Part shown: in pieces, positions 51,609 to 54,978 of the stretch | How the letters are laid out: the number at the start of each line of letters is the position of its first letter | Position numbering within the stretch: position 1 is the first letter of the stretch | Assembly (NCBI RefSeq): GCF_013170805.1 | Contig: NZ_CP051293.1 | Span: 5,462,001-5,526,000 of the forward strand | Direction: 5' to 3' | Length of the DNA: 64,000 nt | From: Mesorhizobium sp. NZP2077 | GTDB taxonomy: Bacteria > Pseudomonadota > Alphaproteobacteria > Rhizobiales > Rhizobiaceae | Notes under the pieces: model-generated | The model's input: the letters and a program-made list of their open reading frames with translations, nothing else | What the model was told of the DNA's origin: nothing | Database searches by the model: none | Made by a program: the position numbers and the translations under genes

Positions 51609-51688
51609 TGCCTTGGGATCGTTCCGGTAGCGTCGCCTCCCAAATGATGTTTCCGGGGGGCAAGCGACCATGTCCAGATCCAAGATCG

Positions 51689-51838
51689 TCATTCCGCGAC
51701 CCCGATGGTGTCTGGGCGAAATTCAACCTTGAAGACGTTGCGACGCCCGAAGGTTTTGCCCGCGACCCCGCCAAGGTGCAGGATTTCTACAATATGCGCC
51801 GGCGACAGATCATGGGTGCGGCTTCAAAGGCAACCAGG
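51689..51838 (+). pseudogene. Remnant of a sirtuin (NAD-dependent deacylase) gene
   Basis: About 50 codons read SFRDPDGVWAKFNLEDVATP, then EGFARDPAKVQDFYNMRRRQ and IMGAAS. This corresponds to the segment right after the NAD-binding GAGIS motif of bacterial SIR2 proteins (TFRD...; DVATPEGF; V-x-DFYN-RR). The upstream Rossmann part and everything after AAS are missing or scrambled in all frames nearby. It is a decayed gene between tldD and the PsiF-like gene. Confidence 0.7.
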
Positions 51839-51916
51839 CTCATATTTTCCCGAAATTGCCACCAGCCTCCCCGCTGGGGCAGGCTGGCAGCGAACCTCGG
51901 CCGCGACGGCGGTCGA

Positions 51917-52192
51917 TCAAGTGGGTTTGCCGCCGTTCTTCTTGCAATCGGCCCGGAATTTCGCGCGCGCCTTGCCGTGCAGCTTCTTGGCATCGGCAAG
52001 GGCTGAACATTGCTTGGAAATCGCGGTTTTCTCCGGCGTCATGGCGGTCGCCGGCGCCTTCTTCACGGGGGCGACCGTGGTGGCGGCCGGCGCAGTGGTC
52101 GTCGTGGCTGCTGTTGCCGTCGCAGCCGCGGCGGCTCCCGTCGCAATGAATCCGGCCACGGCGATAGACGTCAGAACGCTTGCAATCCTCAT
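51917..52192 (-). CDS. PsiF-like small exported protein
   Basis: This 91-residue protein starts at ATG 52192. A signal peptide (MRIASVLTSIAVAGFIATGA, then AAAA) is followed by a low-complexity Ala/Thr segment (TATAATTTTAPAATTVAPVK) and a basic C-terminal repeat (CSALADAKKLHGKARAKFRA, DCKKNGGKP). The latter matches the PsiF repeat, in which two cysteines flank a lysine-rich helix. PsiF was first seen as phosphate-starvation-induced in E. coli; its function is unknown. Confidence 0.72.
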   Translation of the reverse strand: MRIASVLTSIAVAGFIATGAAAAATATAATTTTAPAATTVAPVKKAPATAMTPEKTAISKQCSALADAKKLHGKARAKFRADCKKNGGKPT

Positions 52193-52429
52193 TATGGTTA
52201 CTCCCTTGAGGCCCCCCGGCACTGACTGGGTATCAGCGAGCCGGGGCGCCGCGCAATCTCAGCTGTGGTCAACCACGCAGTTGTGATCTGATCGCGGGTC
52301 GCCGCAGCGGGCCGGCCATGTTTTGCCCCCGGCTCTGCACAGCCGCCTCACCTCACACAACGCCACCGGCGATGCGTTTCAAGTCCTGCGCATGCCCCGA
52401 CCGAAGCCAGGCCACCCAGGCGACATGTG

Positions 52430-54787
52430 CTACTTCTTGCAAGCGGGCTCATTGGGGTGCCCGCAAGACGGCTTCTTGACGGCCGGCGGCTGCGGCGGCC
52501 TTGGCTGCGCTTGCGGCTGCCGGTGCACCTGCTGGATCTGTTGCTTCGGCTGGGCGTGGAACTCCTGCCTCTGCGGCTTGGGCTGACCCAGCACCTTCAA
52601 CTGCTGATTGCCATTATTGACCTTGAATTTCTGCTGGACATTATCGCCACCGTTTCCGTTGGCAGGTGGCTTGTGGAATTTGGGACCGTTACCATTGCCC
52701 TGAGCCCCACTGCGTTGCCCATTGGCCTGGCCGTTCGTCTGGCCACCGCCCTGATTGTGAAGCTTCTTGAACTTGCCATTGGGCGGATTCTGGCCTGAAT
52801 TCTGGCCGTTGAGCACCGATGCGTTGTTCGCCGCAGGCGCACCGTTGGCGCCAGGGATCTTGCGGAGCTTCTTGCCAGTTTTGCCGGTACCGTTCTGGCC
52901 CTGCCCATTGCCTTGGCCATTGGCCCCGTTTTGCCCATTCACCACCGGGTTGCCGGTCACGGCGTTTCCACCTGCGGTGCCCTGTTTGTTTAACAGCTTC
53001 CTGGACTTGTTGTTGGGCAGGTTCGGGTTGTTGGGCAGGTTCTGTCCATTCAGCACCGGCTTGCCATTGACGAGCGGCAGCGTCTTACCGTCGGCGCCGG
53101 GCAAGGCATGACCTGTCAGCTTGTCGGCAGGCAATGTCTTCGACAGCGGCGTGGCACCTCCGGGCTGCTGGCCATCCTGCCGGGGCTTCAGCGGCAGGCC
53201 GCCGGCGTTCTGCTTGGACAGCACGGTTTCCTTTTTATGTAGGAAAGCCGGCAGCGCCACCTTGGCCGCCAGCGCGGCTGCACCCAGGCCCACGGCGCCG
53301 GCGGTCAGCTTCTGGCCCGTGGTGAGGCCGCCGCCCTGGTTGTTGTTCTCGTTGATCGTCGTGTTGTTGATGATCGTGGTGTTGTGGATGTTGTTGAAGA
53401 TGACATTGTCCGGCGGTGGGAAGATGTCATGCGGCGGGTTGACCCACGCCGGCACGGGCACAAAGACCGGCGTCGGCAGAAGGAAGATTCCGACTGGCGG
53501 CGGCGGTGGCGGCAGTTCGATGAAGTCGCGCGGCCGCGGCGGCAGGAAAATCACCGTCACGGGCGGCGGCGGATCGAAATCGAAATCGGGGTCGTCGAAA
53601 TAGAGTACGGGACGGTCGACGTAGACGATTTCCTCCTCCGGCGGCGGCGGCACGTCATAGGCGTAAACGGTGAAATCCTCCGGGGGCTCCAGGGCCGCAT
53701 CGAAATGCTCAAGCCGGCGACGGGCATCCCAGGCATGCGGGCCATGCGGGTAGCGCCGGAGATATGACCAGTAGGCTTCCGGCGTGTCCCGCAGCCAGGT
53801 TTCGCGCCAAGTGATCGCCTCGCGCCGCGCAGCGATGATGGCGCGCACGCGCTTGGCCATCGGATCGTGCGGATAGGCGCCGACGAAATCCTCATAACCG
53901 CGCAGCGTGTCGCGATCGAGCGCCGCTACATAAGCGTCGTGGGCATCGAAGTCGCGGATTTCCCTGGTCCGGTTGGCTTGGGATTCGGCCTCCGAAACTT
54001 TCGGCGCGGGCGCGTCCGGGGCACGATCGAAGAACACGAAGGGCGCGCTGATCTTCGAGGTGTTCCAAGGCACTTCGGCCCCTTGCGTCACTTCGTTGAC
54101 GCGCAGGCGCGTGCGGTCGAACACATCGTCGAGCGACAGGCCGCCGTCGCGCATCATCTCGGCCAGCGCCTGGGCATAGGCGCCGTACGGTCCCTTGCCT
54201 TCCGGCGCGACGGTTCCCGGCGCGGCGTTGAAGGCGATCAGCATGTTCGGGTCGGGATCGACCAGCGCGAGACCGCCCGCCAGCGGCTGGTTCGTTTGCG
54301 GGAATGCATTCGGTCGCGCCGCGTCGAGCACGACGATGTTGACCTTCGTCGGCAGTCCAGCCAGCGACTTGGTGAGGTCGGAGAGCCGCATCGCCTGGAG
54401 CGGGACGTCGGCTGGATTGGTGATCTGGGCATCGACCGGCAGGAAGTAGTTCTCGCCTTCGAACTGCACACCTTGGCCGGCGAGGTAGACGAAGACGACC
54501 GCGTCGGGTCCGGCAGCGGAGACCTTGCCGAGGAAGTCGCGCAGCGCGCCGCGCAGCGACTCCTGATCCACATCACGGGCGCCGACCACATCAAAACCAG
54601 CAGCCTGCAAGGTCTGCGCGATCAGTCCGGCGTCGTTGGCGGGTGTCACCAGCGCGCCGGACGGATAGGCAGCGTTGCCAATGACGAAAGCGAGGCGTTT
54701 TTGCTGTTGCGCGAGCGCGCCCGTCGCGGAGGCGGCGACGACGAGCAAGAGGACGAATAAACTGAGGAATTTCTGGAGCATCCGCAT
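52430..54787 (-). CDS. Caspase-fold protein lacking the catalytic His and Cys, with Asn/Gln-rich tail
   Basis: This 785-residue exported protein has signal peptide MRMLQKFLSLFVLLLVVAAS plus ATGALA. Residues about 28-255 are a C14 caspase-like p20/p10 domain (RLAFVIGNAAYPSGALVTPA, NDAGLIAQTLQAAGFDVVGA, GENYFLPVDAQI). The catalytic histidine segment reads YLAGQGVQ (Q105 in place of His) and the cysteine segment VVLDAARPN (A157 in place of Cys), so proteolysis is not expected. A tetratricopeptide-like helical stretch (280-365) and Pro-rich segments follow, then an Asn-rich patch and a transmembrane-like helix (494-515). The 270-residue tail is rich in Asn, Gln and Gly. Confidence 0.88.
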   Translation of the reverse strand: MRMLQKFLSLFVLLLVVAASATGALAQQQKRLAFVIGNAAYPSGALVTPANDAGLIAQTLQAAGFDVVGARDVDQESLRGALRDFLGKVSAAGPDAVVFVYLAGQGVQFEGENYFLPVDAQITNPADVPLQAMRLSDLTKSLAGLPTKVNIVVLDAARPNAFPQTNQPLAGGLALVDPDPNMLIAFNAAPGTVAPEGKGPYGAYAQALAEMMRDGGLSLDDVFDRTRLRVNEVTQGAEVPWNTSKISAPFVFFDRAPDAPAPKVSEAESQANRTREIRDFDAHDAYVAALDRDTLRGYEDFVGAYPHDPMAKRVRAIIAARREAITWRETWLRDTPEAYWSYLRRYPHGPHAWDARRRLEHFDAALEPPEDFTVYAYDVPPPPEEEIVYVDRPVLYFDDPDFDFDPPPPVTVIFLPPRPRDFIELPPPPPPVGIFLLPTPVFVPVPAWVNPPHDIFPPPDNVIFNNIHNTTIINNTTINENNNQGGGLTTGQKLTAGAVGLGAAALAAKVALPAFLHKKETVLSKQNAGGLPLKPRQDGQQPGGATPLSKTLPADKLTGHALPGADGKTLPLVNGKPVLNGQNLPNNPNLPNNKSRKLLNKQGTAGGNAVTGNPVVNGQNGANGQGNGQGQNGTGKTGKKLRKIPGANGAPAANNASVLNGQNSGQNPPNGKFKKLHNQGGGQTNGQANGQRSGAQGNGNGPKFHKPPANGNGGDNVQQKFKVNNGNQQLKVLGQPKPQRQEFHAQPKQQIQQVHRQPQAQPRPPQPPAVKKPSCGHPNEPACKK

Positions 54788-54978
54788 TTCAGGCCACCAT
54801 GGGTAAAGAGCCGACGCTGTCGGGACCCTTCCCCTCCTCCAGCGATCTGGACTAGACGGACGCAAAGAGGCGGCTTTGCGGCGCGATCTCGGCAGGTTGG
54901 GATCGAGTATAGCCTAACCGGCTATTTCAAGGAAAAGTGATCGCTTTCTGTCCGCGCAGCAGTCGAACCGAGATCCGC

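Follow-up and report, generated by a model that had tools for sequence, protein, structure and literature searches.

The caspase-like gene on the minus strand of the window (the whole 64,000-nucleotide stretch of Mesorhizobium DNA that was analysed) encodes a protein that, judged by its sequence, is a pseudoenzyme and a member of the described pseudo-orthocaspase family. Trees of its relatives place the loss of the catalytic Cys first, followed by replacement of the original His, with Tyr as the standard residue and His regained several times; this order of events at the two sites is a new result of the present analysis. Another new result is that species exchange this gene, but not its flanks, at a single fixed site, from which it can also be deleted. 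The layout of the gene and protein is given in Table 1.

Table 1. Features of the caspase-like gene, its product and its leader, in window coordinates.
Feature	Position	Strand	Basis or remark
CDS, 785 aa, pseudo-orthocaspase (QA dyad), probably exported	52430..54787	-	frame, Pfam and homologues
Likely signal peptide, residues 1-26	54710..54787	-	by eye; AF2 helix 2-21, pLDDT <50 at 20-27
p20/C14 caspase-fold domain, ~residues 27-256	54020..54709	-	Pfam PF00656 30-250; AF2; fold matches to MALT1/caspases
Q105 codon CAA, former catalytic His position	54473..54475	-	variable in relatives
A157 codon GCG, former catalytic Cys position	54317..54319	-	Ala in 120/121 listed homologues, query included
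Six-helix domain, ~residues 262-368	53684..54004	-	
Pro-rich acidic stretch, residues 369-460, net charge -12 over 371-460	53408..53683	-	composition; AF2 mostly low confidence
N/G/Q/K-rich basic tail, residues 521-785, net charge +28	52433..53227	-	composition
C-terminal motif C775 to C783 (CGHPNEPAC)	52439..52465	-	sole cysteines of the protein
Leader, methyltransferase stop to start codon	54788..54978	-	

The match to the Peptidase_C14 profile is significant and places the protein in the caspase fold, and a Pfam search without a p10 profile gave no second match besides PF00656. AF2 predicts a caspase-type fold for the p20 domain, with fold matches to MALT1 and caspases and with low confidence in the second part of the domain; for the six-helix domain, a candidate TPR domain, no significant fold match was found. 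Homologue searches listed the best 120 matches, which together with the query form the set of 121 used below, and the best named among them are Mesorhizobium proteins titled caspase family protein. The basic tail closes with CGHPNEPACKK, and a C-x(3-7)-C motif occurs at the C-terminal end in 117 of the 121 close and 47 of the 120 distant listed homologues. The distance from the motif LTTGQK to the end of the protein ranges from 128 to 446 residues in the 84 of 121 listed homologues that have that exact motif. Judged by eye from its N-terminus, the pseudo-orthocaspase is probably exported.

The original prediction had read C14 fold motifs, a GQG in place of GHG and a DAA in place of DAC in an intact 785-codon frame, and all of these stand: Gln occupies the His site (Q105) and Ala the Cys site (A157), and the two motifs align with the GHG and DMC motifs of MALT1. 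The only cysteines, C775 and C783, both lie near the C-terminus and the p20 domain has none, which rules out an active-site Cys at a shifted position in this protein; a shifted active His/Cys pair in relatives had been named by the prediction as its own refutation. In 117 of the 121 listed homologues, query included, the stretch from residue 41 up to the last 15 residues is free of Cys. The protein thus lacks the His-Cys dyad of active orthocaspases and, like the pseudo-orthocaspases described in PMC6426788, has a p20 domain in which one or both residues of the dyad are replaced. Cleavage by the caspase mechanism would be impossible without a nucleophilic Cys, and we infer that the protein has no proteolytic activity, as in the pseudo-orthocaspases of PMC6426788. 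The non-catalytic role predicted earlier is supported.

Bacterial pseudo-orthocaspases are known and are abundant in Rhizobiales (Klemencic et al. 2019, PMC6426788). The Rhizobiales forms with YA and HA dyads share with our protein the p20 fold, the missing His-Cys dyad and the order, and the YS/YA forms have prolonged C-termini, mostly without identifiable domains; the available part of that paper names YA and HA, and QA, RA, EA and NA are not among the dyads named there. No experimental study of this protein was found among the titles and abstract starts of the matches listed in the open-licence PMC literature. The genome (7.7 Mb, two contigs) has 14 C14 domains. His and Cys are present at the two motifs in 13 of them, 12 with GHG/DAC and one (L136) with GHG/DCC, and the dyad is missing solely from the protein described here. 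The active-type orthocaspases of the genome (L123-L131, L133-L135) have PF00656, the LDA motif and the GxG loop in common with it but retain both catalytic residues. MALT1 paracaspase and animal caspases share the fold, whereas the present protein has no dyad, is bacterial and probably exported, and carries other attached domains.

The two former catalytic positions have behaved very differently. At position 157, 120 of the 121 listed homologues have Ala and one has Ser, while position 105 is H in 45, Q in 42, R in 18, Y in 13, E in two and a gap in one, with six residues (H, Q, R, Y, E and N) found within Mesorhizobium. A conserved inactive pair had been expected, and this is rejected: A157 alone is nearly fixed, and Q105 is one of six residues at its site. 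Among the best 120 homologues of a distant family member (L112), the pairs are YA 109, HA 7, YG 2, IA 1 and YV 1. In the two sets of pseudo-sequences, exceptions to Ala at position 157 are Ser in 7 of 111, and Gly in two and Val in one of 121. The preceding Asp, D155, is kept throughout both sets (111/111 and 121/121) and in 12 of the 12 HC paralogues of the genome; the pseudo-family shows almost no variation at D155, R158, Q108, N187 and Y201, and D155 and R158 are shared with the paralogues. N187 (106/111 and 119/121) and Y201 (111/111 and 120/121) differ from the 12 HC paralogues, which have A/S and N/H/D at these positions, and this difference suggests a possible re-tooled pocket.

The Mesorhizobium subtree has 51 tips, of which two come from a MAG labelled no further than Hyphomicrobiales. 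Site 157 shows no change on it and a non-synonymous rate of 0, and residues 101-104, 106 and 108-111 show no change either. Site 105 changed 12 times, and only three of the 230 p20 sites, 105 included, reach at least 12 changes. Two nucleotide trees gave 10 and 12 changes at 105, with eight and four sites (105 included) reaching as many, and a tree built from the codons around site 105 likewise gave 12. With the synonymous rate set to 1, the non-synonymous rate is 0.52 at site 105 and 0.08 over the domain. Positive selection at this site was rejected, since the rate lies on the side below 1 on both the full tree (0.52; LRT against neutrality 6.0) and the local tree (0.63; LRT 2.9), and none of the sites fitted with the codon model had a supported excess of the non-synonymous over the synonymous rate. 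Fast change at site 105 is relaxed constraint rather than positive selection.

The remainder of the conserved part is held firmly. The codon model gave an omega of 0.080 for residues 27-368 across the Mesorhizobium clade, and Nei-Gojobori dN/dS, computed over the 976 of 1275 pairs with p20 dS between 0.05 and 0.8, was 0.114 both for p20 and for the linker plus helical part; higher values came from the signal peptide (0.35), residues 461-520 (0.31) and the Pro-rich stretch (0.26). The p20 and helical parts are under strong purifying selection and the gene is not decaying here, in line with the pseudoenzyme under selection that had been predicted. That the gene is instead a recent pseudogene on its way out, the other refutation foreseen, has next to no likelihood: a gene-less relative (L150) keeps only a deletion scar and the frame of L059 is broken (open frame 484 aa; match length not a multiple of three), but the frame here is intact, omega is low across the clade, and no internal stops occur in the matches listed for the Mesorhizobium and order genome samples.

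To order the events at the two sites, we reconstructed position 105 on two concordant trees, the first with 116 unique sequences and HC proteins as its root, the second with 244 tips; L001, L093 and L094 (copies of the window or of L011) were left out of the trees and four identical rows were merged. Outside Mesorhizobium, the first tree shows LS/VS, VA, EA, YS and YA lineages. In it the Mesorhizobium sequences group as a single clade (support 100), beside another clade made up of YA sequences from Rhizobium and its allies (support 100). Column reconstruction under three simple substitution models placed Tyr at 105 in the common ancestor of Mesorhizobium and Rhizobium (posterior 0.997-0.999; 0.999-1.0 on the second tree). 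The Mesorhizobium ancestor had His under two models and Gln under one (0.57 vs 0.38), with His at 0.59-0.95 on the second tree, and the ancestor of this protein and L020 had His (0.98-0.99). On the 244-tip tree, seven HA sequences outside Mesorhizobium fall in at least four places on Tyr backgrounds, counting placements irrespective of branch support. The trees therefore place the Gln of this protein as a descendant of a re-acquired His and not of the original catalytic His, whose loss the original prediction had implied. An alternative history, in which His was kept throughout and Tyr was gained repeatedly in parallel, is far less likely under these models; it is conceivable because this His is most often replaced by Tyr (PMC3501461). 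Inference from a single tree is weakened by recombination within the gene.

The gene occurs in 28 of 61 sampled Mesorhizobium genomes (E <= 1e-60), carriers being defined by the match, with the dyad read in a minority of them, and in two of the 121 genomes of the family sample, one of which is the window's own. Its position in Mesorhizobium is fixed: the same RNA methyltransferase gene precedes it in 44 of the 48 loci L013-L060, as in the window, and tldD follows, within the available sequence, in 42 of those 44, the two flanking genes being convergent. In Rhizobium the gene lies at another site, where two neighbour families are common to 18 of the 36 loci compared, and in L061-L092, the 32 loci from outside the Mesorhizobium set, none of eight neighbour genes of the window was found in the available flanks. 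All 10 gene-less Mesorhizobium examined, of 33, have the methyltransferase gene and tldD on the same fragment. Between the two genes lie a Peptidase_C93 gene in three, a RES-type gene with an upstream partner in two, a Sir2 gene in two, a scar in one and nothing recognised in two; two of the three C93, one RES and one Sir2 were assigned by sequence likeness rather than by Pfam. What survives in the L150 scar is the leader together with the opening codons and the final part of the gene. The window itself has a Sir2-family gene remnant at 51638-51853 (+), which matches residues 6-77 of an intact relative at 40% identity (E 3.8e-13), and intact Sir2 genes lie at the same site in L155 and L156.

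Exchange at this site is visible in sequence distances. The comparison used the 40 syntenic loci of L013-L060 with a complete set of the six genes (780 pairs, the window lying outside the matrix). Spearman correlations of amino-acid distance were 0.52-0.82 among the five flanking genes, whereas the caspase-like gene reached only 0.20-0.24 with each of them. Between L045 and L037, DNA identity is 74-84% in the methyltransferase gene, 91-98% from the gene start to ~0.3 kb past its end, and beyond this tract 57-63% and then 84-93%; between L045 and L019 the pattern is reversed. These values fit the replacement of one gene in place. The window copy looks mosaic against L019, with 74-86% identity over the first 1.25 kb and 88-91% over the next 1 kb.

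A conserved operon partner was sought and rejected: Peptidase_C93 is present in 40 of the 48 loci L013-L060 but has no match in the window or in L061-L122, and the L024 copy is distant, elsewhere in the locus, and the L045 copy a fragment. In L013-L060 this transglutaminase-like cysteine proteinase gene usually lies just past the caspase-like gene on the opposite strand. Beside the gene, window 51917-52222 (-) encodes a small Ala/Thr-rich protein whose N-terminus resembles a signal peptide and whose match to Pfam New_glue is below the cut-off; it may resemble PsiF repeats. Of the 48 Mesorhizobium-set leaders, 25 have an EcfG-like motif, GGAA(A/C)C-N15-17-CGTT, between -85 and -40, against none of 28 others, in a leader set without five loci whose upstream sequence was short or shifted; carriers include L020, L022, L023 and L025, and the window leader is one of the 23 of 48 without it. 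Most of the 25 have GGAAAC, unlike the R. etli consensus GGAAC-N16-CGTT (PMC3892343). With no motif in the window leader and 11 copies of GGAAAC-N16-CGTT in the window's genome against 13 for a reversed control, hence no enrichment, a general stress promoter was rejected. A sigma-70 scan gave no promoter-like site on the gene's strand, and terminator-like sites were not more frequent than in shuffles. A stretch like GCGCCGCAAAGCCGCC recurs in most printed Mesorhizobium leaders, exchanged alleles included (window 54788-54978 and relatives).

Taken as a whole, the protein is probably a pseudo-orthocaspase acting as an exported envelope binding or scaffold protein, with its His site freed after Cys loss and its gene behaving as a single-gene exchangeable unit; among possible roles, binding or scaffolding in the envelope is the most likely. 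In such a protein, loss of the nucleophilic Cys would be ancient, with Ala now in its place in nearly all members, and the p20 cleft may bind a peptide or other envelope component, with the six-helix domain as a putative adaptor. From composition, we would guess that the Pro-rich stretch is a spacer and that the basic tail anchors to an anionic envelope polymer, a C-terminal disulfide closing it. Because the Cys was already gone, the His position would have been released from most constraint, Tyr becoming standard across Rhizobiales and Mesorhizobium re-acquiring His and then Gln, Arg, Asn and Glu, while the gene would be exchanged and deleted as a unit for which no conserved partner was found. 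Carriage by 28 of 61 genomes makes the gene dispensable, which sits poorly with a central scaffold. A bolder version, which we hold only tentatively and judge doubtful, is that Cys loss freed the His site, that His was re-invented at least five times (in Mesorhizobium and in at least four other places) with Cys never coming back, and that the Mesorhizobium gene is a single-gene determinant of the envelope, exchangeable at a fixed place on the chromosome and kept by selection for allelic variety.

The protein may instead be a decoy or regulator that competes for substrates or pairs with the active orthocaspases of the genome, of which there are 13 candidates with His and Cys at both motifs. Retention of D155 and the precedents of c-FLIP with caspase-8 and TbMC4 with TbMC3 (PMC6426788) favour this reading; it is nonetheless unlikely, as identity to the paralogues is only ~26-37%, the nearest lies ~370 kb away, and the authors of PMC6426788 argue against a regulator role in prokaryotes. 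We give a similarly low chance to a polymorphic surface protein, with selection by phages, bacteriocins, competitors or the plant host driving interspecies exchange and the variable tail exposed. The weak gene-flank correlation, the tract exchanged between L045 and L037, the L150 scar and the variable length after LTTGQK are what one would expect of it, but the p20 and helical domains are strongly conserved, no fitted site has a supported excess non-synonymous rate, and exchange by itself is no proof of selection. A cleft that hydrolyses or modifies something without Cys could account for the family's own nearly invariant N187, Y201 and Q108 beside the shared D155 and R158; such chemistry is very improbable, given that position 157 offers no conserved nucleophile among its Ala, Ser, Gly and Val and that there is no alternative Cys.

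A function tied to photosynthesis has been proposed for pseudo-orthocaspases from a correlation: in Alphaproteobacteria only photosynthetic organisms carry pseudo-variants, which was read as support for such a role (PMC6426788). In the genomes sampled here this link is contradicted for the present family, a result that is new with respect to the published hypothesis. PF00124 reaction-centre genes are absent from the window's genome and were found in one of 28 carriers and none of 33 non-carriers among the 61 Mesorhizobium genomes. Across the order sample they are present in 6 of the 28 genomes whose pseudo-copy was confirmed, compared with 47 of 221 others (Fisher p = 1.0), the others including 15 genomes with a hit (two HC, L121 and L122, and 13 with the dyad unread) and up to seven candidates being scored per genome, so that carriers may be missed. 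The sole Mesorhizobium with a reaction-centre match (G009) carries the caspase-like gene. For this family we therefore attach almost no probability to a photosynthetic function.

Bacterial pseudo-orthocaspases form a numerous and unexplained group of proteins, which the published hypothesis ties to photosynthesis (PMC6426788). The parts of this pseudoenzyme most worth following up are its evolutionary record and its exchange at a fixed site. As a patchy, exchangeable gene it provides natural presence/absence pairs for finding a function, and the succession of a Cys lost and fixed, a His position set free and a His regained is a natural record of a protease turning pseudoenzyme.
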